This document shows, piece by piece, positions 31,586 to 50,063 of a DNA stretch of 64,000 nt (within the stretch, counting starts at the first letter, position 1; each line of letters begins with the position of its first letter). Source of the stretch: Janibacter sp. Soil728 (lineage in GTDB: Bacteria > Actinomycetota > Actinomycetes > Actinomycetales > Dermatophilaceae); contig NZ_LMRZ01000003.1 of assembly GCF_001428305.1 (NCBI RefSeq), positions 196,225 to 260,224 on the forward strand, given 5' to 3'. The notes under the pieces were generated by a model. The model saw only the letters and a program-made list of their open reading frames with translations, was not told the origin of the DNA and did not search any database. Made by a program: the position numbers and the translations under genes.

Positions 31586-31603
31586 GAGGTCAAGGTAGCG
31601 ACC

Positions 31604-31712
31604 CTCGTGCTCCCGGAGGACGTTGTGCAGCAACCGTCTCCACGTTCCCAGCGCGAAGCAACCGTCTCCACGGTCCCTGAGGAGGTTGCGAAGCAACCGT
31701 CTCGAAGGGAGC
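31604..31712. repeat. GGTTGC-GCAACC repeats, copies 3-5
   Basis: Three partial or full copies: GGACGTTGTGCAGCAACCGT, GCGAAGCAACCGTCTCCACG and GAGGAGGTTGCGAAGCAACC followed by GTCTCGAAGGGAG. They fill the gap between the two NERD genes. Confidence 0.72.
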
Positions 31713-32562: not shown

Positions 32563-32643
32563 CGTCCTCGACTCCCCCAGCACCCACGCTGCTGATGTCG
32601 CGTGAGCATAGAACTGAATGCCGTGGCGCGACAGGCCCCGCGA

Positions 32644-32667
32644 TTCGCCCCCTTCAGAGGGGGCGAA
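32644..32667. repeat. 24-bp palindrome, copy 1
   Basis: TTCGCCCCC, a 6-base spacer and GGGGGCGAA. It lies in the gap before the S51 peptidase stop codon. Three further copies lie within 1.65 kb. Confidence 0.85.
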
Positions 32668-32669
32668 GG

Positions 32670-33341: not shown

Positions 33342-33420
33342 GACGTTCCCTTCGTGGGCGGCTTCGTGGTCGAAGGGAGCCTGTCACGCAACCGCTGGAC
33401 CTCGCCTCCCCTTCGCCCGG

Positions 33421-33444
33421 TTCGCCCCCTCCAGAGGGGGCGAA
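33421..33444. repeat. 24-bp palindrome, copy 2
   Basis: TTCGCCCCCT, 4-base spacer, AGGGGGCGAA. It lies in the gap between the S51 peptidase start and the HNH gene stop and could act as a terminator hairpin. Confidence 0.85.
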
Positions 33445-33454
33445 GGTGGCCTCG

Positions 33455-35155
33455 TCAGAAGGACGGCTCGCCCGCGAGGGCCAGCTCGCGCTCCTCCGGA
33501 CTCCCAGACCGTCCACGCAGCTCGGCCAAGCGCGCGGCTCGCAAGGCTTCGTCCTCCTCGTCCTCGTCGCAGATGTACCGCGGCTTCGAGTCGTTCGCCC
33601 CCTCTGAAGGGGGCGAGTCCTCGTCGTCGGTGTGTACCCACAGGCTCGGGAAGGTGCCCGTCGCGACGCCCGCCGGGCTGATCCACTCGGTGCGCCCGTC
33701 CTCGTGCAGCCGGTGCGTCCAGCCCGGGGTGTGCTTGAGGCGGTGGTGGTGCCGGCACAGCCCCGACAGGTTGGCCGGGCAGGACTCGCCCTGTGGCCAT
33801 TCCGTCGCGTGGTCGAGGTCGCCGTTGGTCAGCGAGCACCCTTGATCGATCGCGCGGTTGCAGCCCCACATGCGGCAGGTCTCGTCCCGTGCCTGGACGA
33901 AGTCGCGCATCCCCTCCGTCACGACGTACCTCGGGTTGCTCGTCTCCACGAGGGTCCCGGTGCGGGCGTCGACCAGCGCCCGCGAGACCTTGGTCTCCAG
34001 GTTGCTCGTCAGTGCCGCGACCACGTCCGCCGGGATGAACCCGACACCCGGGATCTCGCAGCCGCTGATCCAGCACTCCTGCCCACCCGGGCCCAGGCTC
34101 GCGGGCACCTGTGAGGTCACCGCGTCGCCCGCCCACTCCTCGGGGATCACGTCGACCGCGTCGGCGCCCTCCCCGGTGACGAAGCGCCCTTCGCGGGCGG
34201 TCGGGCCGTGCAGGTCTTGGCCGACGGTGGTCCCACGCTGGTCGAGGTGCGACGAAGGAGTCTCGTGACCTTCGCCCCCTTCGTAGGGGGCGAAGGTCAG
34301 TCGGGAGGCGGCAGACGTGATGACCGGGATGCCTAGGCGGATACTCGCCCGGACCTCCACTCCCCGCAGCGCGAGGTCGGCGAGCCCGTAGGCGCGTGAG
34401 GCGCCGGCGGTCAACGTCGGATCGGACTCGCGGCGCAGTTTCGCCGCCACCTCGATGGCCTCCTTGAGGGCGACCGCCATCTCGGAGGGCAAGGTCGCAA
34501 ACATCTGCGCCGTGCCCACCGGACCCTCGGCGAAGCTCACGTCCGTCTGCTCGCGACGGTTGCGACGTGCCTTCGCCGCGAGGATCTCCGGCTCGACGCG
34601 CTGCAAGACCCGTCGGATCGCCTTGCGCAGCGCACGCTCCTCGAGCTCACCGATGCGGACCGACCCGGGCTTGCCGCGAAGGGGGGCGAGCAGGTGAGCA
34701 AGGACTGCCGCCACAGCTTCGGGGCTGGCCCGCTTGGTCTCCTTTGCCACGATGCTGAGCACCCTGGTCGGGACACGGCCCTCCGCGACCAGATCGGCAA
34801 TGGGCAGCAGATCCGTCACCGCTCGGGCTGCCAGATCGCACCGCTCCCCCGCCGCCCAGGTGCTGGCGTGCGTGACCATCGCGACCGCTTCCTCGGCGAA
34901 CTCGGCCACCTCGCCCTCGCGCAGGTGAACCTGACGGTAGATGCCGTCCGGGCCACGCTCCTCGCCCCAGCGCACGACCTGCCCCAGCACGGACAGCTCC
35001 AGGGCATCAGCCGCGCGTCTGAGTCGCTCGGTCGCCTGCAAGACGCACGTCAGGCTCGTCTGGTCAGCACGTCCGCCGCGCTCACTCACCCCCGCTCGCG
35101 CCTGCCCCAGCCCTCGGAAGGACTCCTCCACCACGGTCAGCTCATCGTCGAACAT
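33455..35155 (-). CDS. DUF222 / HNH endonuclease domain protein (13E12 type)
   Basis: A 566-aa protein of the actinobacterial 13E12 repeat family: N-terminal DUF222 helical region (ERLRRAADALELSVLGQVVRW onward) and an HNH domain near residues 430-475 with MWGCNRAIDQGC, DLDHATEWPQGESCPANLSGLCRHHHRLKH, where the HNH metal-binding His and the second Cys/His set are visible. Two 24-bp palindromes lie in frame inside it, encoding FAPYEGGEG (about residue 288-296) and SPPSEGAN (about 513-520), which look like insertions in linker regions. These proteins are multi-copy and of unknown biological role; mobile or defence-related activity is suspected. Confidence 0.85.
   Translation of the reverse strand: MFDDELTVVEESFRGLGQARAGVSERGGRADQTSLTCVLQATERLRRAADALELSVLGQVVRWGEERGPDGIYRQVHLREGEVAEFAEEAVAMVTHASTWAAGERCDLAARAVTDLLPIADLVAEGRVPTRVLSIVAKETKRASPEAVAAVLAHLLAPLRGKPGSVRIGELEERALRKAIRRVLQRVEPEILAAKARRNRREQTDVSFAEGPVGTAQMFATLPSEMAVALKEAIEVAAKLRRESDPTLTAGASRAYGLADLALRGVEVRASIRLGIPVITSAASRLTFAPYEGGEGHETPSSHLDQRGTTVGQDLHGPTAREGRFVTGEGADAVDVIPEEWAGDAVTSQVPASLGPGGQECWISGCEIPGVGFIPADVVAALTSNLETKVSRALVDARTGTLVETSNPRYVVTEGMRDFVQARDETCRMWGCNRAIDQGCSLTNGDLDHATEWPQGESCPANLSGLCRHHHRLKHTPGWTHRLHEDGRTEWISPAGVATGTFPSLWVHTDDEDSPPSEGANDSKPRYICDEDEEDEALRAARLAELRGRSGSPEERELALAGEPSF
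33594..33617. repeat. 24-bp palindrome, copy 3 (inside HNH gene)
   Basis: TTCGCCCCCT, 4-base spacer, AGGGGGCGAG, with one mismatch at the outer end. It lies within the C-terminal coding part of the DUF222/HNH gene without breaking its frame. Confidence 0.8.
34271..34294. repeat. 24-bp palindrome, copy 4 (inside HNH gene)
   Basis: TTCGCCCCCT, TCGT spacer, AGGGGGCGAA, within the linker between the DUF222 and HNH parts of the gene; frame is kept. Confidence 0.82.
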
Positions 35156-35235: not shown

Positions 35236-38200
35236 CTACTCCGGCGCGATGAGTTGCCAGAAAGGCACCTCACGGATGAAGCGAGTTGGCGACAGGTCGG
35301 ATCGATACAAGGACTCATGAACCTTCAGGCCACGGATACGTTCGGCCATATCAAAGTTTGCATCTTTAATACCCAGAGCTGACAGCTCCGTGTGAATAGC
35401 ATTTGGCACCTTGTGGATGAACCACGTCGAGAGCGTCTCTGCGTAGTTCGCCCCTTGGACCTTGAAGTGACTCAGGTACTGCGACGAAAGAATCGTTCCA
35501 ACGCCAAACTCACGCCCTTCTTTCAGGAGACTGTCCAACACGTCGAACTTGTATTTCATGATATTGGACGCCTCGTCAACCAAGAGGTACGACGAGATGT
35601 TTCTGACCGTAACTCCGTCATCCGTGTGACGCGGCGGGACCTTCTTCATCCGCTTCATCCGCTCATAGAACATGTCGAGGTAGAAGACGACGATTGCGTT
35701 CTTCGTATAGGAGTCTGCTCCGAGCGAGTTCAGATCAATAACGAGCACAGTGTCTCTCATCGCCTCGTCGAGGGAGATGACTTCGTCGCGGTCCTCGGTG
35801 AAGACTTCGCCCAGGACGAAAGCGTTTAGGATCGACGTCACAGAGTCTCCTGCCGCCTCTTCACGGTACGTCTCCAGAACCTCACCGAGCGTTGGCGCGG
35901 CACCGGAACGCTGCTCATACAAACCCATAATGACGGCAATTAGCGCATCACGCTGCACTGGACCGACGCCCTTGTAGATCCTCCCCAGCATGGTCGAGAA
36001 GGCCGCTGCGCGTCTGTATGCCGCCGCCTTTGTGTATGCCTCGTGGAGGTCTAGAACATTGAGTGGCATGCGAGACGGCTGCCAGACGGTCGCCCCAACA
36101 GAATCCACGAACTCCTTGTCTTGGAAGTCTCGCTTGTAATCGAAGACCAAACAATCCACCGGGTCCTGCTGGACTTCGCGTGAGACCTTGCGAAGGTTCA
36201 GCATGAGAGCCTTCAACAACTGGGTCTTCCCAGTGCCAAGGTCTCCGACAACACCCATGTTGAGCTGGGTGGTCTCGGAATTACCTGGCCAGTACTCACC
36301 CAACTGCCCTGCAAGGGAGCCAGGCAGCGACCCGACGGTGAAGCGGACTCCGTGGTTGATTGCCTCCGTCTCCCGCGACTCAGCACCCGTAGGCGGAGAT
36401 GCCACAGACGAGGTCTCATGAATAGGGCTGACGACCTCCGCCGCTCCGGTATCAACACCTGTGAATATCGCCGGCGGCACCGGCCGCGAGGACAGCGGTG
36501 GCGGTGGCGGTGGCGGTGGCGAAGAGGAAGAAGAAGAGGAAGAAGAGTCCGGCGAGTGGCTAACCGCCCCGCCTGGCTCCTCCTCCTGCCGCGTGCCAGC
36601 AGTGCGCCGGTACGTCAGGGGAAGCCCGGCCAAATCTGAACGCACGATCACCGGCGTATCGCGTACATCCGTCTCGAATCGCGCACCCAGCCCCGCCTCC
36701 TCGTCGAGCCTTGGCGACTCCGTCTCCGAGTTCGCCGCCTCGCGAGGCTTCCTGCTGCCCACATCGACCTCGCGGACCGGATGTGTAAGAGCCCACTCGA
36801 CAAGGCTCGCCCACTTTGCAAGCACCTGTGCCTCGCCGTCGAACGCGCCGGCCTGCTCCTCCAAGGCATAGCGCGGCCGAACAGCCATAGCCCCGTAGGC
36901 CGACATCACATCGTGTCCGTCGAGGGAGCCCTCGCGATAAGTCTCAATCTCGTCGCCTGCATCGACTTGATGCTTAAAGAAGAGGATGAGAGGTCGTCCA
37001 AGGGCGACTGTGCGATTGCCTTGAGCAAGCCCTTCGAGGGCATCTCGAACTGTGTCCGGTCCGGAGTCCTGATTGGGCGACAACCGCAGTCCAGCCTCGA
37101 AGAGCGTCGCCATCGCGGAATCCCAGAGCGCGGCATCATGGCTCAAATGGTTCGAACGCAGTCGCTTCCTCTCCATCTGCATCTTCTTGAGAAGGCTGAC
37201 TGTGGCGTCAAGTTGCTCGAGCGGTTCGGCGAACTCCGGCCCCGGGCCGGGCAGACTCCCGCCCTCGCCACCGGCGCCATAGAACTTGATCTCGACGGGG
37301 GCCAAAGTGACCTCCTCGCCGACGACTCGCACAATCAGGAGGTCTGCGCGCCGTCGCGTCTCGGAAACACCACTATCTGGCGCCAGCGCATCGAGGAAGG
37401 TCTGGCAGGAGTCCAAAGGCAGTACGGCCTGGACGCTGCCACTCGGCACCGGCATATCTCCGATGAGACGAAGAGCAAGGTAAAAGCCCAGCGCCCCGCT
37501 CGCATGCTGACCGCCCATCGATAGTAGCGACGATAGCCCAATGCCTCGCGTACCCAGTGTCCGGAAGATGTCATCCACCAGAGCAGGGACGGCAGTTGCG
37601 TTCGAATCGCTGACGATGCCTCGTACTTGTGAACTGACCTGCTCCACCAAGGACCCAGCGACGCGAGCGATCGTTACATAAGGACGGCGACTGAGTGGTG
37701 ATTGGTCCTTCGTCGGGCGGAGAAAGGGGGGACGCCACTCCCAAAGCATCCGATCCGTCGCGTTCCCACCGTGGTTGGCGATCATATGCGCGAGCGCCGT
37801 GGGTGAAAGGAAGGACTCTCCTGAAATGGTCCAGTCCGAAGCATCGTTGAGCAGTGCAGAAACAGCGGTCTGCAGCCGGATCCTCGGCGCGAAGTCGGGC
37901 CCTTCCACCGCCCTGAGTGCACGGGTGAACGCATGGGGGCCCGCAGGCACCCCTGGCTCGAGGGTCGTCGAGGTCGAGTTTTCTGAAACGCTAGCCGTCT
38001 CATACCGACGCACGCTGGCCTGGGCCAGCACGCCGCCGTCTCTACCAGGCTTAGGAATGTACCCAATCTGCACCCCGCTGTCTTGGAGCAGACGCAGATT
38101 GCTTCGTGGACGGGAGCCCGGCGTTGTCGCATGAAGTGAAGCCGGATAACGGCTCCAGCTCACCGACGTCGTCAAATCGTCCTTGAACAGTCCGGACAGC

Positions 38201-40944
38201 AGGTCACGCGGCAAATCGCCTTCCCGCGTCAATTGATCCAGAACCCTGACTCCGAGGAGGGGCTGTTCCCGCTTTGACCACTCACCAACAGCACGGATGA
38301 CACTGGAATCAATCTCCGTCAAGCGTGGGCCCGGAGCCGAGCTCGCGAGGTCGACAGTGACACTGGGCAAGTGTTGGTTCGCGCGGATGAAGTCGCGCAT
38401 CGCCGCATCTGCTGCCGTGCCGGTGAGCCCACTCGGCGCGCTGCCCGGCATCGCATAACCTGCCGCTCGAGACGGGGCCCTCAAGTGCAGGGTCTTGCCC
38501 GTGGCAAGCAGCACCAGCATCGACCACCCCACGAAGAGCTGGTCTGTGCCGGAATCAATCGGCACAGCCACCATACGATCGATGCCTGCGCGGCCAGGGC
38601 CGACCATCGGGAACCGCCAGCCTTCGACCACGCCAGCCAGATCCCGCGCACGTTCCGCCCCCCACAGGACTTCCTCCGTCTGAGCCAGCCATGCCATGCG
38701 GAGCGGATGCCAAGGGGACAGAAGCACTGCTGTGCATTCGACACCTCCCGTCACTTCACCCCACACAGAGGCCGAGAACGGAAATGCAGCGCGGAATCTC
38801 ACCATCTCGTCGAGCTCCGCGCATGCGTCAAGGAGGTCGGCGTAGCGCTCAAGGAGTCGGTCAATAGATCCGTCCTGAACCAGATGACGCAAGGATCGCT
38901 TAGATGGCCAGACCCCACTGCGGCCAAGTTCCGTACAGTCTGTCCGTGTCACACACTCTCGCCATTGGGCAACGAAGGCGTCGTGAGCCTGACGCGCGGG
39001 AGAGTCGAATGAGACGTCGGCATCGAGGGCGACTCCTTGATCCCAATAGTTAACCGTCTCGCTCGCCATCTGAAGGCCCCGATGGCTGATGTTTACGTCC
39101 GGAATAGCAGCGGTGCGATCTTCTGGGAGCACCACGTGCCCCAAACAACTGGTGAAGTCGTCATCTTCAACGCGCGCAGCGTAGAGGCTTTCGAGTTGCC
39201 CGCGCAGAGAGTTCAGGACGTCCGCGTCGGGGTCTTCTGGGTTGACAGGGGTCTTGTAAATCGCGGCTACAAGCAAGGAATGTGGAGCCTCGGACGCGCC
39301 TCCAGCTGCCAAGGACCACTCACGCGACCCAACCTTGAGAGAGCCACCTGCATTAGGCAGGAGATCTCCTACGTACCACCCGGACCGGTCATCCATCGGC
39401 TCGAGGGAGAACCCTGACGACGCAGGCACGCCATCATGAGCCCAGACAACCACGCGGTAGTGCTTGTCCGGTTTCAGCTCGACGCCGAAAGCGTCCTCAT
39501 CATCTGACCTAGATGCTGGCCCCTCGTACCGAGGCAAGCGAAGGCCCGTCCGCTTTCCGGAGTTCCACTCGATGGCGACGACGCCTTCATCGACGGGCGG
39601 CACAACGTGCACCGCAACACTGCCGGACCCGAGATACCCGAAGAGGGGATCCATGGAGTCCACCTCGAGAGAGAGCCCTACCTTCTTGAGGCTAAACGTC
39701 TTGGCTGGCCGCACCCTGAGCACCACATCAAACATCAGCTCCTGACCAGATATCCTGAGAGACCGCACGGTTTCTACCTGTGCAGCCGCCGAAGCCTTCA
39801 CTCTGACTGACGTTGCACGCATGAGATCTTCAGGAGGACGGGAGTGCAGCGGAGCGACGATCGTGACCTGTTCCGTCTGCAGACGGCCGTCAGGCATCTC
39901 CGTCGAGGCAACCAAAGAAACCGTAGGCTGCGTCTGGCTTGCGGAAAGCAACGCAGCGCTTGAGTCGAGCACGTAGAGCGCCTTGGCGGGTGGCGCGCCT
40001 CGAAGGAAGGAGTCCTCAGATATCTCACTGAAGGCCCTAAGCCGTTCGCCGTCTTTCGTCACAGTGGCCTGGAGACCGAGGAGTCCACTGCCGGAGCCAA
40101 CCACCTCGTCATCCAGTCCGTCCCAACCCGCCTGACGGCACGCATCGAGAGCGCTTGCCTCGACACCACCTGTCAAGACCATTTCGCGGGTATAGAGATC
40201 AATTGCCTCCTCCGAACTCCAGATTTCCTGCAAACTCAGCACGAAGTCGGATGCCTTGTGGCGCTTTTTCCACGCGACCATGTCGGCTGGCCGGGGTAGG
40301 CCGAAGGCTGCCCACACATACTCAGTCAGGGCTTCTGCGAAGGTCGAGATGTGCGGCACAGTGTGCGCACTAGCGACAGCTTCGATGAGCGCATCTGCTC
40401 CCCTATCGACAGCCAGGAACCATTTGGCGTTCCACCCAGCGCCACCGTCTTGTTCCACCACCAGAATGTCAGCAACTGCACGCAGGCAGCGCGCCAACTG
40501 TTCAGAGAGTTCGTCCACGGGAAGCTCGCGGACGTCCACACGTGATGCCTCTGCGATGAGGACAAGGAGTTCCCGCGCCAAGGCGGTCACGTCAAACGAC
40601 TGCAACGCCGTCTCCGGGAAGCCAGGGCCGACGAGCTCACGAAAGGCACCGTCGAACGACGCCAAGTCCACGCTTGTAGCCGAAACCACAGCCAATCGAT
40701 CCCCTTGCCGGTACCGAATGGATTCCGAGCGAGATACAACGGGAAGGTTCCGCTGCGACTCCCCCTCACCTACGAGTATCGCGAAAGGGGTCTGGCTCGG
40801 CCTACGTAGATTTGCCTCGCGTACGGCGGCAGCACCGACGGATGGGGCAGCGTCCGAAGGCAAGTAGATGGCGTTGAGGCCAGAGAGCCCTGACGCCAGC
40901 CTTCCGATGGAACGTCCAGTCAGGCTATCCGTTGCTCTCTGCAT
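35236..40944 (-). CDS. DptH-like giant protein: PD-(D/E)xK-like region plus C-terminal HerA/FtsK-type ATPase
   Basis: A 1902-aa protein, last gene of the operon. Residues ~1-1150 match no family I can name. Around 1202-1221 ADLLIVRVV...LAPVEIKFYG has the spacing of a PD-(D/E)xK nuclease core (D, then E-x-K). Residues ~1465-1490 are a poly-Ser/poly-Pro linker. From ~1562 a HerA/FtsK-superfamily ATPase follows: Walker A GDLGTGKT at 1567-1574, LVFDYKRDF after it, Walker B YLLVDEAS near 1790, and an arginine-rich EGREFGVGTILSSQ sensor segment. Size, nuclease-ATPase order and the final PFWQLI recall DptH of phosphorothioate-dependent restriction; this homology is my reading, untested. Its ATG overlaps the previous stop by one base (TGATG). 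Predicted role: DNA translocation and cleavage. Confidence 0.7.
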   Translation of the reverse strand: MQRATDSLTGRSIGRLASGLSGLNAIYLPSDAAPSVGAAAVREANLRRPSQTPFAILVGEGESQRNLPVVSRSESIRYRQGDRLAVVSATSVDLASFDGAFRELVGPGFPETALQSFDVTALARELLVLIAEASRVDVRELPVDELSEQLARCLRAVADILVVEQDGGAGWNAKWFLAVDRGADALIEAVASAHTVPHISTFAEALTEYVWAAFGLPRPADMVAWKKRHKASDFVLSLQEIWSSEEAIDLYTREMVLTGGVEASALDACRQAGWDGLDDEVVGSGSGLLGLQATVTKDGERLRAFSEISEDSFLRGAPPAKALYVLDSSAALLSASQTQPTVSLVASTEMPDGRLQTEQVTIVAPLHSRPPEDLMRATSVRVKASAAAQVETVRSLRISGQELMFDVVLRVRPAKTFSLKKVGLSLEVDSMDPLFGYLGSGSVAVHVVPPVDEGVVAIEWNSGKRTGLRLPRYEGPASRSDDEDAFGVELKPDKHYRVVVWAHDGVPASSGFSLEPMDDRSGWYVGDLLPNAGGSLKVGSREWSLAAGGASEAPHSLLVAAIYKTPVNPEDPDADVLNSLRGQLESLYAARVEDDDFTSCLGHVVLPEDRTAAIPDVNISHRGLQMASETVNYWDQGVALDADVSFDSPARQAHDAFVAQWRECVTRTDCTELGRSGVWPSKRSLRHLVQDGSIDRLLERYADLLDACAELDEMVRFRAAFPFSASVWGEVTGGVECTAVLLSPWHPLRMAWLAQTEEVLWGAERARDLAGVVEGWRFPMVGPGRAGIDRMVAVPIDSGTDQLFVGWSMLVLLATGKTLHLRAPSRAAGYAMPGSAPSGLTGTAADAAMRDFIRANQHLPSVTVDLASSAPGPRLTEIDSSVIRAVGEWSKREQPLLGVRVLDQLTREGDLPRDLLSGLFKDDLTTSVSWSRYPASLHATTPGSRPRSNLRLLQDSGVQIGYIPKPGRDGGVLAQASVRRYETASVSENSTSTTLEPGVPAGPHAFTRALRAVEGPDFAPRIRLQTAVSALLNDASDWTISGESFLSPTALAHMIANHGGNATDRMLWEWRPPFLRPTKDQSPLSRRPYVTIARVAGSLVEQVSSQVRGIVSDSNATAVPALVDDIFRTLGTRGIGLSSLLSMGGQHASGALGFYLALRLIGDMPVPSGSVQAVLPLDSCQTFLDALAPDSGVSETRRRADLLIVRVVGEEVTLAPVEIKFYGAGGEGGSLPGPGPEFAEPLEQLDATVSLLKKMQMERKRLRSNHLSHDAALWDSAMATLFEAGLRLSPNQDSGPDTVRDALEGLAQGNRTVALGRPLILFFKHQVDAGDEIETYREGSLDGHDVMSAYGAMAVRPRYALEEQAGAFDGEAQVLAKWASLVEWALTHPVREVDVGSRKPREAANSETESPRLDEEAGLGARFETDVRDTPVIVRSDLAGLPLTYRRTAGTRQEEEPGGAVSHSPDSSSSSSSSSPPPPPPPPLSSRPVPPAIFTGVDTGAAEVVSPIHETSSVASPPTGAESRETEAINHGVRFTVGSLPGSLAGQLGEYWPGNSETTQLNMGVVGDLGTGKTQLLKALMLNLRKVSREVQQDPVDCLVFDYKRDFQDKEFVDSVGATVWQPSRMPLNVLDLHEAYTKAAAYRRAAAFSTMLGRIYKGVGPVQRDALIAVIMGLYEQRSGAAPTLGEVLETYREEAAGDSVTSILNAFVLGEVFTEDRDEVISLDEAMRDTVLVIDLNSLGADSYTKNAIVVFYLDMFYERMKRMKKVPPRHTDDGVTVRNISSYLLVDEASNIMKYKFDVLDSLLKEGREFGVGTILSSQYLSHFKVQGANYAETLSTWFIHKVPNAIHTELSALGIKDANFDMAERIRGLKVHESLYRSDLSPTRFIREVPFWQLIAPE

Positions 40945-42344
40945 CAGTACGCGCTCCTCACTCGAACTCCACGGTCAGCGTCTGCGCTTCCCTGAGCCAG
41001 ACCAGCGGCCTCAAGCGCTTTGACAAGCTCAAGCAATTCCGGGCGCAAACCAAGTTGGCCAAGAGTGGCTAGTACCTGTCCAAGATTCGTTTCCCCGCTT
41101 GGTTCATCACAGGCAAGGCTCGCGATAACAGCGATCCACTCTGTACCGGGTTGAATCACCGAGTAGCGGTTCCCGTGTTTCCGCAAAAGGCCGTAGTAGT
41201 CAACCTCGGTAGACGAGTCACGCTGCTGGAGGGAGTACAAAATGGTCTCATACATGTTTTTGCACGAACCCGGCCAAGACCTGCCGCTCAGCGCGTCCCG
41301 AACTGCTTGCTTCAGCTCGGGGTCTCGCCGCGCCTGCTGAAGAGCGTCCTGCAAGGTGACGTCAGAGCCGCTTCCAAAGTAGTCCTGAAGGGCAGCCCGC
41401 GTCAGCACCCCACCCCCTACCATACGGCGCATTTGAGGCTTGTTGTTTCGTGAACTCACGGGGAGTCTTGCACCCGGCCATTGCAGGAGGGGCGCAGAAG
41501 AATCGAGCATGCTGAGCGGCACGTCATCGCCAGATAGGATGCTCCTTCCAACCGCCTCAAACCAGCGGCTTTCAAAGAGAAATCCGAACGCAATTCCCAT
41601 CCTGAGGACTGTGGTGCACCAGTCGGTCCAGACCCGTGGCGGAAGTGCTTCGACCCACTCAGGACTCGTCAATTTGACCCACTGGTCGTGGAGCCATCCG
41701 TATGGAGTCTCTCGCAACTGACCCCGCCAGGGTGCAAGTGACGACTCGTCGAGAGATACCCGATCCGTGCCCGTAGACTTGAGGCCGAGCCCGCTGGCCA
41801 TTGCTGTGTCTGTTGCCCTGAGGACCGGGTCGTCAACCATCCGCAGATCTGCTGCCAGCACCCACCGGCTAGCCATCGAAATTCTAGGCCCCCCGGGCCG
41901 TGACTCGGATTCGCCCAAGGCAAACATCGTCTCGAGGACGCCCGCCATGTCCGGCGGATTCTTGGCGCCGAGAACTCCTCGGAGACTCTGCGCAAGGGCC
42001 AGATGTGTGGTCATAGGGCTGACCGGAACCGTCTTGGCCTTCGCCGACCTCACGCCGGTGATGCCGCTAACCACCGCCCGCACAAGGACTTCGTCGGATG
42101 CCTCGGTCTGCATGCCATAGCTGCGCAAAACTTTGGCGAACGCTATTTGCTTTTCGCTGGTATTAGGTGCCGATATAACGACACCCTCCTTGTCGGACTC
42201 GCCTAGAAAGCGACTGGCATGGACATTATCGTCACCATAAGCCCACCGTCCACTTCCCCAGACCAGCGCAGATACGAGAACCTCGGCAGCCGGAACATAT
42301 TGCGGGCGGTTGAGTGGGAAAAAGAGAGGTGCCTCTTGGTTCAT
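40944..42344 (-). CDS. Orphan protein of the methyltransferase/ATPase operon (DptG position)
   Basis: A 466-aa soluble protein with no motif I recognise. The N-terminus PLFFPLNRPQYVPAAEVLVSAL and the middle YGWLHDQWVKLTSPEWVEALPPRVWTDW are rich in Trp and aromatic residues. The C-terminal ~90 residues (YYGLLRKHGNRYSVIQPGTEWIAVIASLAC, then LGQVLATLGQLGLRPELLELVKALEAAGL) look like a winged-helix-type unit. It overlaps the upstream gene by ATGA and the downstream gene by TGATG, so all three are produced in fixed ratio. By order and size it corresponds to DptG of DptFGH modules, where DptG bridges the two ATPases; sequence homology is unproven. Confidence 0.65.
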   Translation of the reverse strand: MNQEAPLFFPLNRPQYVPAAEVLVSALVWGSGRWAYGDDNVHASRFLGESDKEGVVISAPNTSEKQIAFAKVLRSYGMQTEASDEVLVRAVVSGITGVRSAKAKTVPVSPMTTHLALAQSLRGVLGAKNPPDMAGVLETMFALGESESRPGGPRISMASRWVLAADLRMVDDPVLRATDTAMASGLGLKSTGTDRVSLDESSLAPWRGQLRETPYGWLHDQWVKLTSPEWVEALPPRVWTDWCTTVLRMGIAFGFLFESRWFEAVGRSILSGDDVPLSMLDSSAPLLQWPGARLPVSSRNNKPQMRRMVGGGVLTRAALQDYFGSGSDVTLQDALQQARRDPELKQAVRDALSGRSWPGSCKNMYETILYSLQQRDSSTEVDYYGLLRKHGNRYSVIQPGTEWIAVIASLACDEPSGETNLGQVLATLGQLGLRPELLELVKALEAAGLAQGSADADRGVRVRSAY

Positions 42345-44749
42345 GCCTGCTCCTTCATGCTGAGGGCGATGTCGCTGGCAGACGTTGCGATACGCAGATC
42401 CTTGGCACCCCTATTCTTTGGGATGAGCCTCAGGGACCTGAACCTTTCCAGCCGTGGGGCCGTCGAGTCCGTCGCGTCAGTCATTCCCGCCCAACCTCCA
42501 TGCGACGCCAATGCCTCCCGAATCAACTGAAGATCAAGCACCACCGCCCCCAGTCGATTATTCCCCTCAGTCAGGTAGAGGAGCAGCTTTTCGCCATCGG
42601 CGTGTGTCCGGAATTTGACGTCCTCAACGACCACGCTCAAGGTCGGAGAGGAAGTGCGCCCCCTCAAAGGCTCTGTACGGCTCGCGAAAAGAGGGATCAG
42701 AGACTTGCTCTGTGAATCATCCGGTTCCCGACGTGGGCTAACCAGCGTAGTCAGCGCAGTCTCCAGCTCAGGCGGAAGTGCCGGTGCCAGTGCGCGCGCC
42801 TGAGTCCAGGTATGGATCTCCGAGCCAAAGGCGGGGTATCCGTGAGCGAGAGCCATCATTCGGGTCAAGTACCTGCCATACCACGACGTGGCCTGCGCCC
42901 TCTGCTTGGCGTCGGATTCTTCGTTGATCCACCGGACGTACGATGCGTCCAGCAACTGATCGAACGGCGTCACCATGTCGTCAAGTGCTCGCGTAGGGGC
43001 AGAGGCAATGAGCCGTTCAAGCGGCGATGCGCCCAACTCTGCTCCTGCGAATGCCTCCATAACCGGTGTCGCCCAGCCAGAGTCATCCGTTTCAGGCGCC
43101 CCCGGAACCATGTCACGAGCCGGGTCCACTGCGGTCGTCGCCCGCAAGATTGGATGCCTCCCAACCCTGTCTTCAGCGAAGAGCGCCTCATGCAGACGGA
43201 CGGCAGCCAACTGCCTCATGTGATCAAAGCTGGGGACCCCGCCTTCGGACAACTTTGCAGCTTGCTCGTCATACCAATGACACAACTGGGACTTCGCCAA
43301 GGTTTCTGGGAGTGGTCCCGCGATCACACGAGCCATTGCGCCCCAGATCTCTCTGTATGAAAGCAACTGGGAGGAAGCAATCTCTGACGCGCGCAGCACC
43401 GACAAGAGTCCGTTCCGTACCCTCGACGAAGCGAGGGAATCGAGGTTCGCTGCGATCGGATCCCAGACACCCGTCGATTCCCATTTGAGTTCCCCCGCGA
43501 CTCTGGACGCCAGAAGGCCAGCTGGCGTCGCTGTTCGGTCATGGCTGGGCGAGAAGACTGCGACCTCGTAGTCGGATGCGGACACCACCTCTTCGGAGAG
43601 GTGGGACTCGGGACGCTCCTCCAGCAGGGAGCATACGTCAACGAAGACAGCCAGAACATCGATATCAGGCATGTCGGATCCACCCACCGCTAGCCCCTGA
43701 CGAACAAAGTTTCGAGGAGTCCCAATAGCGCTCACTCTCGGCCCGGTCGGGGACTCGCGAGCAACTGGCTCCGTGGGCGCGTCCGTGCGCCTCAACCAGG
43801 TCGTGATTGCGCTGCCCAGAGAGTCCTGCGGTTCCTCGGGGGCCTCGTCTACCAAGACCCCCCGGTTGACGCAAGCGACAACAAAATCCTCCGTGCTCGC
43901 GTCCAACTCCGTAGCAATGGTCATCGGCGACGCCCAATCCTCTGGGGGTATGGTCGCGTCATTGATGACGCGCAGAGAACCTCCCGGCGCTCGGTAGGTA
44001 TACGAGCGATGCGCCAGACCGTCGTCGCGCCCGGACACTGGTTCGAGGCCAGCAGTCAACGATGCCGCGACGTGGGACTTGCCGCCGCCTGGACCACCAA
44101 CGAGGAAGAGGATCCTCCGCGCACCTGCCCCTTCCAACAATGCGGTGCGCATCCATTCGACACCAGCATCCACCGCTGCCGGCGACGGAGCACGCAGAGC
44201 AGTTCGGCGCTTGCCGGGTAGCGCTGCGACGTCGGCGCCCCCAGTGGCAAAGTCCCAAAGGGTTGATACGCCGAACAGTTCCGTCGCGTCGGCCACCTCG
44301 TCACCACTGGGCTGGACCGGTGTTGACGCGGCGCTTGGCTCGGCCGACAGAGCTGCTTCGCTCGAGATGATCCCGTTGTCAGCAGCCCGGTCGTCCACGA
44401 TCGTCCCTCTGATACCTCCGGAGACCTGATGTATTGCCTCGGCACCCCGGAGGTACATGGCAGCAACAGGCCGCACCTCCAATTCTCGCCTAACGACCTC
44501 AGTCAAAGAGGCCTGAAAATTGTGGGCTGGGGCCAGACCCAACGGAAAGCCATAGCCCAGCGATACCAGCACGCCCGAAACATTCAGCATCTTGAACTCG
44601 ACGCTCTTGGGCACGCGTCCGATGCGCTCTGAAACGTGACGGTATACATGAGTCTTGACGACCGGCTTCCCGGCGGCTAGGGACTCGACCAACTCCATGT
44701 AAGCCGCAACGAGTACAGAGTTCTCATCATTAGTCCACGCATCCGCCAT
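42341..44749 (-). CDS. P-loop ATPase with restriction-associated N-terminal domain (DptF position)
   Basis: An 802-aa protein. Residues ~1-90 fit a domain I know from the N-termini of several restriction-type proteins: VLVAAYMEL, then KSVEFKMLNVSGVL and PAHNFQASLTEVV. A variable linker follows to ~190. The P-loop reads FLVGGPGGGKSHVAASL with Walker A at about 218-225; INDATIP near 263 is a candidate Walker B segment, and VACVNRGVLVDE follows at ~291. The rest is helical without known motifs. It starts 10 bases after the methyltransferase stop and its own stop overlaps the next start (ATGA). Proposed role: nucleotide-dependent switch or target sensing in a restriction complex with the next two proteins. 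Confidence 0.68.
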   Translation of the reverse strand: MADAWTNDENSVLVAAYMELVESLAAGKPVVKTHVYRHVSERIGRVPKSVEFKMLNVSGVLVSLGYGFPLGLAPAHNFQASLTEVVRRELEVRPVAAMYLRGAEAIHQVSGGIRGTIVDDRAADNGIISSEAALSAEPSAASTPVQPSGDEVADATELFGVSTLWDFATGGADVAALPGKRRTALRAPSPAAVDAGVEWMRTALLEGAGARRILFLVGGPGGGKSHVAASLTAGLEPVSGRDDGLAHRSYTYRAPGGSLRVINDATIPPEDWASPMTIATELDASTEDFVVACVNRGVLVDEAPEEPQDSLGSAITTWLRRTDAPTEPVARESPTGPRVSAIGTPRNFVRQGLAVGGSDMPDIDVLAVFVDVCSLLEERPESHLSEEVVSASDYEVAVFSPSHDRTATPAGLLASRVAGELKWESTGVWDPIAANLDSLASSRVRNGLLSVLRASEIASSQLLSYREIWGAMARVIAGPLPETLAKSQLCHWYDEQAAKLSEGGVPSFDHMRQLAAVRLHEALFAEDRVGRHPILRATTAVDPARDMVPGAPETDDSGWATPVMEAFAGAELGASPLERLIASAPTRALDDMVTPFDQLLDASYVRWINEESDAKQRAQATSWYGRYLTRMMALAHGYPAFGSEIHTWTQARALAPALPPELETALTTLVSPRREPDDSQSKSLIPLFASRTEPLRGRTSSPTLSVVVEDVKFRTHADGEKLLLYLTEGNNRLGAVVLDLQLIREALASHGGWAGMTDATDSTAPRLERFRSLRLIPKNRGAKDLRIATSASDIALSMKEQA

Positions 44750-44759
44750 GAATCGGACC

Positions 44760-46385
44760 TTACCGGCTGCGGGCGATGGAACCTGCGGCAGTCAACGCCA
44801 ATTCGGAGTCAGGTCCACGTCCCGCCTCGGACGTCTGGAGAAGCTCTGAAAGAACCAGCCCGATTGCATAGCCAAGAAGCGGCGGAACCGCGTTGCCCAC
44901 CTGGGTGTACTGCGGCACTTGGTACTTCCGCCGCGGCCCACCAGTCGTCGGCAGCGAACGGAACTCAAAGTCGTCAGGGAACGACTGGATCCTGGCCATC
45001 TCACGGACGCTCAGTGTGCGCGGTACGTCGTAGTGGCAAGCGTCGTCTGGAATCGACAGGGCAGCTGGTGCAGGGTGACCAGCACGGAGAGCTCGCTGTG
45101 TCCGCTTCCGCGTCCGGAGCCCCTCGACGGCGCGCTTCGCTTCCGACACGGACCGGACCTGACGCCCATCTACCCCATGAAGCCCGACTGCCATGAGCTT
45201 CGCCAACGCCGTATGACCGGGCGGGGCAACGTCACTGTTGGCCGACTTGAGGTACTGACGGACAGAGTGCGCCTCCCCCTCGTCGCCTGCAGCGATCAGG
45301 GCTTCAAGGGCCTGATAGAGCACGAAGCGGGCCTCGACCCTCACAGTGTGGCTGCGGTGCTCATTGTTCAGCGTCTGGCCATCGGGCCTCGGTCGTGCGC
45401 GGTTCAGTTTCGGGTTGAAGCGGTGGTTGATGTCCTGCACGTACTCGGATGGCGTTCCGCCTGACTCAAGGTCGTCGATAGCGTCTCGGACAGACACCGG
45501 CGTGGCCGATTTCAGTGACAGATTCCCCAACGGGGATGCTCTGTACCGTTCGATGACGTCGGGCTTGGTCAGGTCCACAATTTCGTGGCGCTCTGGGTCG
45601 AAGGGCACGTCACGGTGAATGTCCTCCAAGAGTTGCTTACCCATGGACAAGGCTCCACGTGCTGTCCCGAGCGCGCGTGCCACGCTTTCCACGAGGTCCG
45701 ACCTCACGGCGATCATGAGGTACCGGGGGCGGTTCTGAGCCACCCCAACGTTGCGGGCATTGACCTGCAAGCAGATTGGCGCATAGCCGATGGCTGCGAA
45801 GGCCTTGGCCACCTCAAACCACGCGTGGATGCGCCCGCTTCCCTCGGTGAATGGCCTGAGGATTCCAGACACGTTCTCCAGCAGGGCCACCTTTGGCTGG
45901 TGCACCTCCACGAACTTGGCGAACTCCCAGGGTAGTCGATTCCTGCCGTTGCCAAACTCTCTGAGTCCCGCCATCGAGAAGCTCTGGCAAGGTGGCCCGC
46001 CCGAGACGATGTCCACGTCCTCTACAAGCTTCCCGCGTGAGCCCACGACCTCATTCAGGTGGCGAATGTCTCCGACGAGCAGGCGGCCTTCGAAGTCGTC
46101 TACGTCCTGCAGTTCCTTCGTATAGGGAGAGCCTCCGTAGGTCATGGGGTCCTCGAGCAACCGACGCCGATCGAAGGGGTCCTCGTATGCGCTCCGGAGC
46201 CACAGTGCCTTGCGTTCGCGGGCGCCCCCACCATCTGAGGACAGGTCCAGCCCAAGGAGGTTGTACGCGTAAGACTCGGCTGCCATGGGAGACAGTTCGT
46301 TGGCGAGGCGGCGCTCGTGGCCAGCAGCTTGCAGGCCCAGCGACAGCCCTCCACAGCCTGCGAACAACTCTACATACCCGCCCAT
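44760..46385 (-). CDS. DNA (cytosine-5-)-methyltransferase
   Basis: Methylates C5 of cytosine in a DNA target using SAM. The ATG at 46385 gives 541 aa; a TTG at 46403 would add six. Motif I is FAGCGGLSLGL at 7-17, motif IV GGPPCQSFSMAG near 130 with the catalytic Cys, motif VI ALLENVSG, motif VIII QNRPRYLMIAVR, and motifs IX-X RTLSVREMARIQSFPDDF and QVGNAVPPLLGYAIG. There are insertions between motifs I and IV and a long target-recognition region (~250-450). It opens the operon of the three restriction-like genes and is divergent from vsr, which fits protection of host DNA by 5mC. The target sequence cannot be predicted. Confidence 0.93.
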   Translation of the reverse strand: MGGYVELFAGCGGLSLGLQAAGHERRLANELSPMAAESYAYNLLGLDLSSDGGGARERKALWLRSAYEDPFDRRRLLEDPMTYGGSPYTKELQDVDDFEGRLLVGDIRHLNEVVGSRGKLVEDVDIVSGGPPCQSFSMAGLREFGNGRNRLPWEFAKFVEVHQPKVALLENVSGILRPFTEGSGRIHAWFEVAKAFAAIGYAPICLQVNARNVGVAQNRPRYLMIAVRSDLVESVARALGTARGALSMGKQLLEDIHRDVPFDPERHEIVDLTKPDVIERYRASPLGNLSLKSATPVSVRDAIDDLESGGTPSEYVQDINHRFNPKLNRARPRPDGQTLNNEHRSHTVRVEARFVLYQALEALIAAGDEGEAHSVRQYLKSANSDVAPPGHTALAKLMAVGLHGVDGRQVRSVSEAKRAVEGLRTRKRTQRALRAGHPAPAALSIPDDACHYDVPRTLSVREMARIQSFPDDFEFRSLPTTGGPRRKYQVPQYTQVGNAVPPLLGYAIGLVLSELLQTSEAGRGPDSELALTAAGSIARSR

Positions 46386-46508
46386 GTACCACCCGTTCCT
46401 CAAGCCACAACCGTCTGGACGTCACTCTAGGCGCAGGGCGTGGAAGCTCCGGTATCGACTCACAGGCCATTCCGTGTGAACATGAAAGTCCCAACGGAAG
46501 GCTGACCA
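46386..46508. promoter_or_regulatory. Divergent promoter region of methyltransferase operon and vsr
   Basis: A 123-base gap between head-to-head genes must hold both promoters. On the minus strand TTCACA and GATACC with an 18-base spacer are a weak candidate for -35/-10. No clear operator was found. Confidence 0.4.
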
Positions 46509-46976
46509 ATGGTTGACGCCGTTGAGTCAGGACGAGTTCCACCGTCGCCAGCGATCAGCGCAAAGTTCGCGGCACTTAGACGGTCGGATACTGTGCCCGA
46601 GATCCGTCTGCGCCGTGAGTTGCACGGACTTGGTCTGCGCTATCGAGTCCAGTACCGCGTTCCAGGACTGCCACGACGTCGCGTCGACATTGCATTCACG
46701 CGCGCACGCCTTGTCGTCTTGGTGGACGGCTGCTTCTGGCATGGCTGCCCCGAGCATGGGCCGATACCCAAGACCAACACCCAGTGGTGGCTGGAGAAGT
46801 TCGAGAGAAACCGACTCCGCGACCGGGACACAGATCAACGACTTGCCCTTCTCGGGTGGACCGTTGTCCGGGTCTGGGAGCACGAGCCTTCTGAGGCGGC
46901 GGCCAGTGAGATCGAACGGGTCTACCGGGCACTCATCAGACAGGGGATGCATCCACCTCGTCCCTCCAATCGATGA
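46509..46976 (+). CDS. vsr: Very short patch repair endonuclease Vsr
   Basis: Nicks beside T in T:G mismatches that arise when 5-methylcytosine deaminates. The 155-aa protein has the family order: SDTVPEIRLRRELHGLGLRYR (25-45), PGLPRRRVDIAF with the catalytic Asp at 60, VDGCFWHGCPEH with His 78 and Cys ligands, KTNTQWWLEKFERNRLRD and LGWTVVRVWEHE. ATG 46509 has GGAAGG about 10 bases upstream. It lies head-to-head with the cytosine methyltransferase, the usual pairing, so it should repair the sites that enzyme methylates. Its ending is rich in Arg/Pro. Confidence 0.94.
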   Translation: MVDAVESGRVPPSPAISAKFAALRRSDTVPEIRLRRELHGLGLRYRVQYRVPGLPRRRVDIAFTRARLVVLVDGCFWHGCPEHGPIPKTNTQWWLEKFERNRLRDRDTDQRLALLGWTVVRVWEHEPSEAAASEIERVYRALIRQGMHPPRPSNR

Positions 46977-47003: not shown

Positions 47004-47041
47004 AAAGGGGGCCCACCGGCAAAGCCGGTGGGCCCCCTTCG
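47004..47041. terminator. Bidirectional terminator between vsr and nrdJ
   Basis: Arms AAGGGGGCCCACCGGC and GCCGGTGGGCCCCCTT with an AAA loop between convergent genes. It marks the right edge of the lower-GC block. Confidence 0.88.
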
Positions 47042-47055
47042 ATCACTTACTCAGA

Positions 47056-49968
47056 TCAGCTGCAACCGCTGGTCGAGCCGCAGCCCTCGCAGACGTAGCA
47101 GGAGCCGGCGGGACGCATCTTGGTGCCGCAGGTCATGCACATCGGGGCGTCCGAGGCCTTGCCCTGGAACTTCTCCATGAGCTCGGCCGAGGAGTGGACG
47201 GTGGCGTCGACCGTGCGGGCAGAAGCGGCACCAGCACCGGACTGGTCGGCGATGGTCTCGTCCTTGGCAACCGCCTCGGGCTTGGCCTCCTTGACCTCAC
47301 TGGTCGCGACACCCTGGCTGTAGCTGTCGTCGTCGTAGTCCGAGTCGCTGTCGTCCGAGGACGAGGCCTCGTACGACCCGGTCTCGAGCTGACGGGCACG
47401 CTCCTCAGCGGTGTGGATGCCCATGAAGGACCGCGTGTCGAAGTCCAGGTAGTCCAGCGCCAGGCGACGGAAGACGTAGTCCATGATCGACTGCGCCATC
47501 CGCACGTCCGGGTCGTCCGTCATGCCGGCCGGCTCGAAGCGCAGGTTGGTGAACTTCTCGACGTAGGTCTCCAGCGGCACACCGTGCTGCAGCGCGATCG
47601 AGATCGCGATGGAGAAGGCGTCCATCAGACCGGCCAGGGTCGAGCCCTGCTTGCCGAACTTCAGGAAGAGCTCGCCGAGGTCACCGTCCTCGTAGGTACC
47701 AGCGGTCAGGTAACCCTCGGCCCCACCGACGGCGAAGCTCGTCGTCTGCGAGGAACGACGCTTGGGCATCCGGCGACGCAGCGGGCGGTACTCGACGACC
47801 TTCTCGACGGGCGCGGCATCGGCGGCGTCCTTCGCGGTCTTCGCATCCTTGGCGGTCGAGCCACCGTCAGACAGCGGCTGACCGACCTTGCAGTTGTCGC
47901 GGTAGACCGCGAGCGCCTTCAGGCCGAGCTTCCAGCCCTGCATGTAGACGTCCTCGATCTCCTCGACCGACGCCGTCTCCGGCAGGTTGACCGTCTTGGA
48001 GATGGCACCGGAGAGGAAGGGCTGGACCGCAGCCATCATCCGCACGTGACCCATCGGGGCGATCGCACGCGCACCCATGGCGGTGTCGAAGATCTCGTAG
48101 TGGTCCTGCTTCAGACCCGGGGCGTCGATGACGTGACCCTTGTCGGCGATGTACTCGACGATCGCCTCGATGGTCTCCTCGGTGTACCCGAGCTTCTTCA
48201 GCGCACGCGGGATCGTCAGGTTGACGATCTGCATCGAGCCGCCACCGACGAGCTTCTTGAACTTCACCAGCGAGAAGTCCGGCTCGATGCCGGTGGTGTC
48301 GCAGTCCATCATGAAGCCGATGGTCCCGGTCGGGGCGAGCACCGACGCCTGGGCGTTGCGGTAGCCGTTCTTCTCGCCGACCTTGACGACCGCGTCCCAC
48401 GCCTTGGTGGCGACGGCGTGGATGTCCTTGTCCATCGTCTGCAGGGTGCGGATCTGGTCGTTGGCCGCCTGGTGCTTGCGCATGACCCGCTTGTGGGCGT
48501 CAGCGTTGCGGGCGTAACCGTTGTAGGCGCCGACGATCCCGGCGAGCTCGGCGGAGCGCTTGTAGGACGCACCGGTGAGCAGCGAGGTGATCGACGCGGC
48601 CAGCGCGCGGCCACCGTCGGAGTCGTAGCCGTGGCCCGTCGCCATGAGCAGTGCGCCGAGGTTGGCGTAACCGATACCCAGCTGGCGGTAGTCGCGGGTG
48701 GTGTCGCCGATCGACTCGGTCGGGAAGTCCGCGAAGCAGATCGAGATGTCCATCGCGGTGATGACCAGCTCGGCGACCGCCTGGAAACGCGCAGCGTCGA
48801 AGGTGTCGTCGTCCTTGAGGAACTTCAGCAGGTTGAGCGACGCCAGGTTGCAGGAGGAGTTGTCCAAGGACATGTACTCGCTGCACGGGTTGGACGCGGT
48901 GATCCGGCCCGTCTCCGGGTTGGTGTGCCAGTCGTTGATCGTGCCGTCGTACTGGATGCCCGGGTCGGCGCACTCCCACGCGGCCTTGGCGATCTTGCCC
49001 ATGAGCTCACGGGCGTCGACGGTCTCGATGACCGAGCCGTCCTTGCGGGAGGTCAGACCGAACTCGGTGCCCTCGTCGACCGCGCGCATGAACTCGTCGT
49101 TGACCCGCACCGAGTTGTTGGCGTTCTGGTACTGGACCGAGGTGATGTCGGACCCACCGAGGTCCATGTCGAAGCCCGCGTCGCGCAGCGCACGGATCTT
49201 GTGCTCCTCGCGCGCCTTGGTCTCGACGAACTCCTCGATGTCCGGGTGGTCGACGTCCAGGACGACCATCTTGGCCGCACGACGGGTCGCGCCACCGGAC
49301 TTGATGGTGCCCGCCGAGGCGTCGGCACCACGCATGAAGGAGACCGGGCCGGAGGCGGTGCCACCGGAGGAGAGCAGCTCCTTGGAGGAGCGGATGCGGG
49401 AGAGGTTGAGGCCGGCGCCGGAGCCGCCCTTGAAGATGAAGCCCTCCTCCTTGTACCAGTTGAGGATCGAGTCCATCGAGTCGTCGACCGAGAGGATGAA
49501 GCAGGCGCTGACCTGCTGCGGGCTGGCCGTGCCGACGTTGAACCACACCGGGGAGTTGAAGCTGAAGATCTGGTGCAGCAGCGCGTAGGTCAGCTCGTGC
49601 TCGAAGACCTCGGCGTCGGTGTCCGCGGCGAAGTAGCCGTGGTCCTTGCCCGCCTTGACGTAGGTCAGGACGACCCGGTCGATGAGCTGCTTGAGACCGG
49701 ACTCGCGCTCCGGCGCACCGACCGCACCGCGGAAGTACTTGGTCGTGACGATGGTCGAGGCGTTGACCGACCAGAAGTCGGGGAACTCGACACCGCGCTG
49801 CTCGAAGATCGTCTCGCCGGTCTTCCAGTTCTGCTGGACGACGTCACGCTTCTCCCAGGTGACCTCGTCATAAGGGTGCACGCCCTCGGTGGTGTGGATG
49901 CGCTCGATGGTCAGGCCCTTGGGGCGGGACCCGCGACGGGTGCTGGGCTTGCCGGCGGTCTCGGTCAT
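47056..49968 (-). CDS. nrdJ: Vitamin B12-dependent ribonucleoside-diphosphate reductase (class II)
   Basis: Makes deoxyribonucleotides using adenosylcobalamin. The single-chain 970-aa length, TASNPCSEYMSLDNSSCNLASLNLL (with the N-x-C-x-E active-site set) and the C-terminal zinc/redox tail MCMTCGTKMRPAGSCYVCEGCG are those of NrdJ. The ATG at 49968 has AGGAG 7 bases upstream; an earlier reading would add 16 residues. It follows nrdR by 95 bases on the same strand, and both are probably controlled by the NrdR boxes upstream of nrdR. The gap between the two genes has no recognisable cobalamin riboswitch. Confidence 0.95.
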   Translation of the reverse strand: MTETAGKPSTRRGSRPKGLTIERIHTTEGVHPYDEVTWEKRDVVQQNWKTGETIFEQRGVEFPDFWSVNASTIVTTKYFRGAVGAPERESGLKQLIDRVVLTYVKAGKDHGYFAADTDAEVFEHELTYALLHQIFSFNSPVWFNVGTASPQQVSACFILSVDDSMDSILNWYKEEGFIFKGGSGAGLNLSRIRSSKELLSSGGTASGPVSFMRGADASAGTIKSGGATRRAAKMVVLDVDHPDIEEFVETKAREEHKIRALRDAGFDMDLGGSDITSVQYQNANNSVRVNDEFMRAVDEGTEFGLTSRKDGSVIETVDARELMGKIAKAAWECADPGIQYDGTINDWHTNPETGRITASNPCSEYMSLDNSSCNLASLNLLKFLKDDDTFDAARFQAVAELVITAMDISICFADFPTESIGDTTRDYRQLGIGYANLGALLMATGHGYDSDGGRALAASITSLLTGASYKRSAELAGIVGAYNGYARNADAHKRVMRKHQAANDQIRTLQTMDKDIHAVATKAWDAVVKVGEKNGYRNAQASVLAPTGTIGFMMDCDTTGIEPDFSLVKFKKLVGGGSMQIVNLTIPRALKKLGYTEETIEAIVEYIADKGHVIDAPGLKQDHYEIFDTAMGARAIAPMGHVRMMAAVQPFLSGAISKTVNLPETASVEEIEDVYMQGWKLGLKALAVYRDNCKVGQPLSDGGSTAKDAKTAKDAADAAPVEKVVEYRPLRRRMPKRRSSQTTSFAVGGAEGYLTAGTYEDGDLGELFLKFGKQGSTLAGLMDAFSIAISIALQHGVPLETYVEKFTNLRFEPAGMTDDPDVRMAQSIMDYVFRRLALDYLDFDTRSFMGIHTAEERARQLETGSYEASSSDDSDSDYDDDSYSQGVATSEVKEAKPEAVAKDETIADQSGAGAASARTVDATVHSSAELMEKFQGKASDAPMCMTCGTKMRPAGSCYVCEGCGSTSGCS

Positions 49969-50063
49969 GCTGATTCTCCTGGTCAGGTCTGGCTGGTCGT
50001 GCGGGCTACTACTCACGGTGTCACCGGGTACCGACAGCCCACTCGCATGTCGGCACCCGGGGT

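Follow-up and report, generated by a model that had tools for sequence, protein, structure and literature searches.

The window analysed here is a stretch of 64,000 nucleotides from Janibacter sp. Soil728 (contig NZ_LMRZ01000003.1, positions 196,225 to 260,224; host assembly of 3.64 Mb in 10 contigs). It carries an operon of four genes (35236-46403, minus strand) that is probably a divergent subtype of DndFGH (DptFGH), in which cytosine-5 methylation, and not phosphorothioation (PT), would be the licence. The first gene encodes a C5 DNA methyltransferase (MTase; 44760-46403) and is followed by genes for proteins of 802, 466 and 1902 amino acids (aa), referred to here as F (42341-44749), G (40944-42344) and H (35236-40944). 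The MTase-F, F-G and G-H junctions measure 10, -4 and -1 bases. A gene for a Vsr-type mismatch nicking endonuclease of 155 aa (46509-46976, plus strand) lies head-to-head with the MTase gene, and the 105 bases between them (46404-46508) form a divergent intergenic region that is, from its coordinates only, a possible promoter site common to both. All five open reading frames (ORFs) are open at these positions, which confirmed the operon, junctions and divergent vsr described in the initial annotation. The G+C content is 0.60-0.64 in 2-kb steps across 34-48 kb of the window and about 0.68-0.74 in most other steps. The subtype appears to be real and conserved and is unnamed in the sources searched; that it works in the manner of DndFGH we infer.

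Relatives and arrangement of the F-G-H loci

A survey of relatives, which was not a census, gave ten F-G-H loci in total, the window included, from Actinomycetota, Pseudomonadota and one viral contig. F, G and H stand in this order in 10/10 loci, and the recurrence of the order in nine loci besides the window argues that it is not due to chance. Junctions F-G and G-H ranged from -59 to 14 bases at the assumed start codons in nine loci, and one extra small gene lies between G and H in the Pseudoalteromonas sp. HL-AS1 plasmid (L018). In an Aeromicrobium metagenome-assembled genome (L014), vsr is divergent upstream of F-G-H and the contig ends within H; this locus was left out of the MTase counts, the H tree and the DndC search. 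In each of the nine loci whose two ends can be seen, a C5-MTase gene adjoins the trio; it lies upstream of the trio in six of them and downstream in the other three, so that the pairing has survived rearrangement. The arrangement is MTase-F-G-H-vsr in plasmids of Rhizobium leguminosarum (L016), Sinorhizobium fredii (L017) and Shinella oryzae (L020) and in the viral contig (L036). The order MTase-F-G-H also holds in the window, where vsr diverges from the MTase gene on its upstream side, and in a genome of another genus of the same family (G048, locus L005), where vsr follows H on the opposite strand. The order is F-G-H-MTase in Arthrobacter sp. NIO-1057 (L013) and Glutamicibacter sp. PS (L015), and F-G-x-H-MTase in L018. 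Vsr, encoded in 7/10 loci, is an accessory or optional partner.

A single-query search for DndC found it in none of nine genomes or records with the system (four genomes, four plasmid records and one viral contig, the plasmids and viral contig being searched as the record alone) and was positive in 3/3 PT controls. The neighbourhoods are thus in line with the initial annotation, which had proposed that 5-methylcytosine (5mC) methylation takes the place of dnd genes beside the trio.

The relatives came from several collections. Window F matched four of 394 genomes of the class, giving one full relative beyond the window (G048); the two weak matches (G313 and G221) were spurious and were rejected as chance. 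Six of 396 phylum genomes matched without adding a relative, the four weak matches among them (G118, G435, G662 and G695) likewise being rejected as chance. An H alignment searched against the 394 class genomes returned the same two, the window and G048. The PADLOC DndH model gave 10 matches in 149 family genomes, with frames longer than 1,800 aa only in G000 and G048. L013, L014 and L015 were obtained by scanning genome contigs with two short patterns only, and the trio was absent from the ORFs of four further stretches (L006, L007, L010 and L011).

When the ATPase domain of H was compared by tblastn with 72,556 plasmid records, 14 matched: five were of the 5mC-linked type, five dptFGH and three conjugative-type, and NZ_AP019852 was not classed. 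The 5mC-linked records represent the four distinct plasmids named above, CP002245 being a second record of strain GR64 that was not counted as distinct. On plasmids, a Rhizobium H without its ATPase matched 5 records and the Pseudoalteromonas G matched 4, neither adding a locus; tblastn of window G on plasmids gave no match, and window F matched six plasmid records over its N-terminal domain only. Two of 50,697 phage records matched: MT836369 (L034), a fragment like the Shinella locus that was not counted, and MT836308 (L035), which carries dptFGH and was used as a dptFGH row. IMG/VR viral contigs contributed one locus, L036, which was returned by queries A4, A6 and A8 alike; the viral-contig scan with query A11 gave 0 relatives. 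Existing annotation in L016-L018 lists F and G as hypothetical proteins and H as an ATP-binding or DUF87 protein.

Likeness of the proteins to DndFGH

The initial annotation had likened the whole trio to DptFGH. In sequence comparison F and H show good homology, whereas that of G is provisional, so that the claim stood for two of the proteins and is probable only for the third.

The C-terminus of H (residues 1551-1899; 35248-36294), for which a match to HerA/DptH had been set as a test, matched DptH in the PDB (7es4, 4.4e-48) and the PADLOC DndH model (3e-62) as a HerA/FtsK-type ATPase domain, with a Walker A motif, GTGKT, at 1570-1574. In direct searches these two matched residues 1552-1899 of H only. 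When joined profiles of nine 5mC-linked and five canonical proteins were aligned with hhalign, two further co-linear regions were recovered, a restriction endonuclease region (window residues 1034-1313; E 1.2e-4, probability 55) and a region with the SPxHP motif (E 1.3e-4, probability 54); cross-family controls of joined profiles gave E values of at least 0.27. With the ATPase removed and the subgroups taken apart, E was 0.0015 for Actinomycetota and 7.3e-5 for Pseudomonadota plus the viral contig. A predicted PD-(D/E)xK nuclease core lies at about residues 1190-1260 (37165-37377), where RADLLIV...LAPVEIK lines up with canonical DptH, and residues D1201, E1218 and K1220 are invariant, with the Walker residues, across six aligned H proteins. 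Within the N-terminal part of H, only the SPxHP region aligned to DptH by hhalign; passages of PMC10853773 describe DndH as having N-terminal iSWI2/SNF2, helix-turn-helix, beta-sandwich, target recognition (TRD) and inactive DAM domains. On these alignments H is classed as a DptH relative. A poly-Ser run followed by a poly-Pro run at about residue 1468, between the nuclease and ATPase parts, is likely a flexible linker.

A tree of H ATPases was built from nine 5mC-linked, five dptFGH-type and three conjugative-type sequences. The nine complete 5mC-linked ATPases formed one clade (ultrafast bootstrap 96, SH-aLRT 99). The dptFGH-type rows were few and did not form one clade, with L042 on a very long branch; the DptH of L039 was left out, not being annotated as one gene. 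Annotation places dnd genes next to dptFGH in L022 and L039, and reading of the ORFs does so in L037 and L035; the stretches of L019 and L042 that were covered carry no dnd annotation. A likeness limited to the common HerA ATPase was considered and rejected; no F or G is listed beside the conjugative-type proteins in their gene tables, and the tree sets these proteins apart. They are UvrD-like or DUF87 proteins of Vibrio plasmids that carry a DptH-type ATPase (L021, 10129-13140; L040, 8111-11047; L038, 8213-11095), with mobI annotated beside the ATPase gene in L021 and L040, and L038 classed as conjugative-type by reading. These appear to be an independent use of the DptH-type ATPase.

Window F has a Walker A motif, GGPGGGKS, at residue 218, INDAT at 262 and CVNRG at 293, and so carries the marks given for DndF in passages of PMC10853773, namely Walker A, an ND motif and Asn at the Walker B position; QD replaces ND in the two Pseudomonadota F proteins aligned. 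The F family (10 sequences) aligned with canonical DptF (6) at E 2.8e-7 and probability 93, against 0.8 for the reversed profile, and the subgroups taken separately gave 1.2e-6 (Actinomycetota) and 1.2e-4 (Pseudomonadota plus the viral contig). Between the two 5mC-linked subgroups, hhalign gave 4.3e-15 for F, 5.1e-6 for G and 4.5e-18 for H. P-loop matches of window F were below threshold in Pfam and NCBIfam, and its sole PADLOC match was PDC-S36 over residues 2-98 (2.6e-21). F is best described, as a prediction, as an N-terminal PDC-S36-type domain joined to a P-loop kinase-like domain with a large lid, and its motifs and profile alignments class it as a DptF relative. The PDC-S36-type domain was also seen in six plasmid records, in five of which it lies within a protein annotated as DUF3883, and is lacking in the F of L005, L014 and two aligned Pseudomonadota members, so that it looks like an optional add-on.

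Window G had no PADLOC or NCBIfam match and a single sub-threshold Pfam match (0.095). An AlphaFold2 model from five rows had a mean predicted local distance difference test (pLDDT) score of 52.9, mostly below 45 in residues 1-210 and mostly 58-89 in residues 211-466, with dips to 34-44. The first Foldseek match of this model in the PDB was 7exx, 'structure of DndG', with a probability of 0.99, an E of 0.04 and a TM of 0.33, and the second had E 0.62 and probability 0.09; an E of 0.04 is not significant by itself, and the weight of the match lies in its specificity. Joined G profiles (10 against 5 DptG) aligned weakly at the matching C-terminal position (E 0.014, probability 3; reversed profile 0.56). 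DndG is described in part of PMC10853773 as 450-500 aa long with three winged helices. G is probably a DndG/DptG relative, as suggested by the model and the weak profile alignment.

The window MTase is 547 aa long from a TTG start, with an in-frame ATG six codons in. It matched Pfam PF00145 (3.6e-50) and M.HaeIII in the PDB (8.2e-17), with GGPPCQ at residue 135, ENV and QNRPR, and catalytic motifs were present in 9/9 loci with an MTase. Between the window and L005 the divergence is similar for the MTase (38%) and for H (35%), which gives no clear sign of MTase swapping. Window Vsr matched the NCBIfam vsr model (2.7e-32) and could be aligned with the Vsr proteins of six other loci; its matches in PADLOC, Pfam and NCBIfam were limited to Vsr, DUF559-type and very weak models. 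No match to a type II restriction endonuclease was found for window F, G or H in PADLOC, Pfam or NCBIfam, the nuclease motif being within H.

Proposed working and alternatives

In the working we propose, 5mC would be the mark of self, placed by the MTase on a sequence motif across the host chromosome, as its enzyme class predicts. F would be a nucleotide-binding sensor or scaffold, G a winged-helix DNA-binding subunit, and H a PD-(D/E)xK nuclease and HerA/FtsK translocase that uses its HerA domain to move DNA and its nuclease domain to cut or nick it. The three would engage incoming DNA as one complex and nick or cut it where the motif is unmethylated, an action deduced from the DndFGH precedent and the conserved linkage. 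The dcm/vsr pairing is known, and Vsr repairs T:G mismatches arising from 5mC deamination; from this pairing, Vsr, where present, would repair such mismatches here and offset the mutational cost of the mark. We lean slightly towards a broader view in which DndFGH is a mark-agnostic engine that one clade has re-licensed from PT to 5mC, F-G-H reading the absence of unrelated marks and the MTase setting the target.

If true, an unnamed defence subtype extends across Actinomycetota, Pseudomonadota and plasmids, and is probably under-counted because F and G escape the models of PADLOC and NCBIfam that were tried. How DndFGH discriminates marked from unmarked DNA is unsettled, and a pair of systems with a backbone mark and a base mark makes the question testable. 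It also suggests that the modification and restriction halves of defence systems are exchanged as modules.

Several observations weigh against a 5mC-licensed DndFGH subtype. The PADLOC DndF and DndG models matched 0/4 of the 5mC-linked F and 0/4 of the G tried (window, L013, L016 and L018), and the NCBIfam DptF and DptG models matched 0/3 of each (window, L016 and L018); Massilia controls matched the PADLOC models at 5.3e-195 (DndF) and 7.1e-165 (DndG) and the NCBIfam models at 9.5e-134 (DptF) and 5.1e-89 (DptG). For G, no Foldseek match of the low-confidence model reached E 0.001, and the separate subgroups aligned with DptG at 0.063 and 0.15, values that do not stand out from unrelated pairs (lowest 0.078), so that this comparison does not support homology. 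Modelling of residues 560-1400 of H gave a mean pLDDT of 41, too poor for the TRD and inactive MTase domains of DndH to be recognized. The system was present in just 2/394 class genomes, vsr was not found by tblastn in the searched stretches of L013, L015 and L018 (3/10 loci), and the DndC check had the narrow scope given above. Finally, DndFGH might function on its own, as proposed in part of PMC10853773, and the MTase would then not have to be its licence.

That proposal underlies the main alternative, in which F-G-H is a standalone sensor of invaders and the MTase, with Vsr where present, is linked but independent, for example an anti-restriction shield or addiction unit. We consider it rather unlikely. 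DndFGH is frequently decoupled from PT modification genes, and triggers such as nucleotides have been predicted for it (passages of PMC10853773); the MTase gene in L013, L015 and L018 lies downstream of H across gaps of 31-92 bases and is not translationally coupled. An unrelated gene would, however, hardly be kept by the trio in 9/9 informative loci from two phyla and in two positions, and the MTase-F gap in L016 is 3 bases. The same constancy makes it highly improbable that the trio works in a type IV-like manner by attacking modified DNA, a reading to which the prediction of DndF as a sensor of modified nucleotides (PMC10853773, in part) would lend itself; with a C5-MTase adjoining the trio, attack on the host's own 5mC would be suicidal, and other modifications are left as possible targets.

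The role of Vsr admits another reading, that it is an effector nicking invader DNA and not a repair enzyme. Its gene is the last of the operon, -11 to 47 bases from H, in L016, L017, L020 and L036, and the end of window Vsr has a weak match to the NCBIfam model of the anti-phage protein ProA (0.047). An effector not found by tblastn in the searched stretches of three of the ten loci, in an operon whose H already holds a nuclease motif, seems improbable, and we favour repair as the role of Vsr in a 5mC-licensed system.

Genomic surroundings and comparison with known systems

The module lies directly 3' of nrdJ both in the window (nrdJ 47053-50016) and in G048 (L005, 16817-19501). The G313 stretch without the trio (L007, 8105-10992) can be aligned across nrdJ and the gene past the nrdJ start, with no alignment on the 3' side, which suggests an insertion hot spot common to the window and G048. 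Between the convergent vsr and nrdJ, a long G+C-rich hairpin was noticed by eye at 47005-47039 and is a probable terminator. On the other side, 3.5 kb from the operon, a gene for a NERD nuclease with a UvrD-type helicase (29900-31696, minus strand) is a candidate second defence gene; its protein matched PF08378 (4.5e-12), PADLOC RTasNERD-Hel (1.4e-29) and, over the NERD part, NCBIfam MAD6 (1e-9). At 32600-34400 the string FAP(S/F/Y)xGGE was seen by eye to be repeated in ORFs of several frames, which points to interspersed palindromic (REP-like) repeats.

The initial annotation had allowed that the trio might be an already named system; it was not named by any PADLOC, Pfam or NCBIfam model. No description of DndFGH with a C5-MTase and Vsr was found in the literature searched (titles and starts of abstracts, with preprints and most subscription journals outside its scope). 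No word starting with Vsr was found in the main text of PMC10853773, the supplementary tables of which may nevertheless list some of the present loci.

The module shares with DndFGH/DptFGH the F-G-H order, the protein sizes, a P-loop kinase-like F, probably a DndG-like G, and an H with the SPxHP motif, a PD-(D/E)xK nuclease and a C-terminal HerA/FtsK ATPase. It differs in that a C5-MTase gene, often with vsr, replaces the dnd genes, in the divergence of the F and G tried beyond the PADLOC and NCBIfam models, and in the separate clade of its H ATPases in the small tree. Unlike PT-dependent Dnd restriction-modification, no dndC was found in the nine genomes or records with the present system, five of which are single records. 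Type II restriction-modification differs in having a separate cognate endonuclease, which is not seen beside the window MTase. The C5-MTase and Vsr resemble a solitary dcm and vsr pair; here both join a large restriction-like operon.

The methylation-associated defence system, MADS, is also related. PADLOC mad7 matches canonical DptG (4.3e-72) and mad8 matches the window H ATPase (2.1e-15), so that the DndG/H module already has a known relative linked to methylation; mad7, however, matched 0/4 of the 5mC-linked G (window, L013, L016 and L018). No mad match was found for window F, G or Vsr, or among the best 25 of 61 PADLOC matches of the MTase. SspFGH shows a weak likeness in two matches, neither significant (PADLOC SspH with window H 684-755, 0.017; SspF with L013 F, 0.039), and differs in being PT-linked; the restriction branches of PT systems are given in part of PMC12707154 as dndFGH/sspFGH, sspE and pbeABCD. 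According to a passage of that paper, deletion of dndF, dndG or dndH singly leaves PT restriction incompletely abolished. Replacement of PT genes by cytosine methylases has a precedent in a subset of Dnd systems (PMC12839542, in excerpt) and in the CxC ABC-ATPase/DndE systems (passages of PMC10853773). In the CxC systems the partner of the methylase is the DNA-scanning core (DndD/CxC-DndE) and not, as in the operon described here, FGH.

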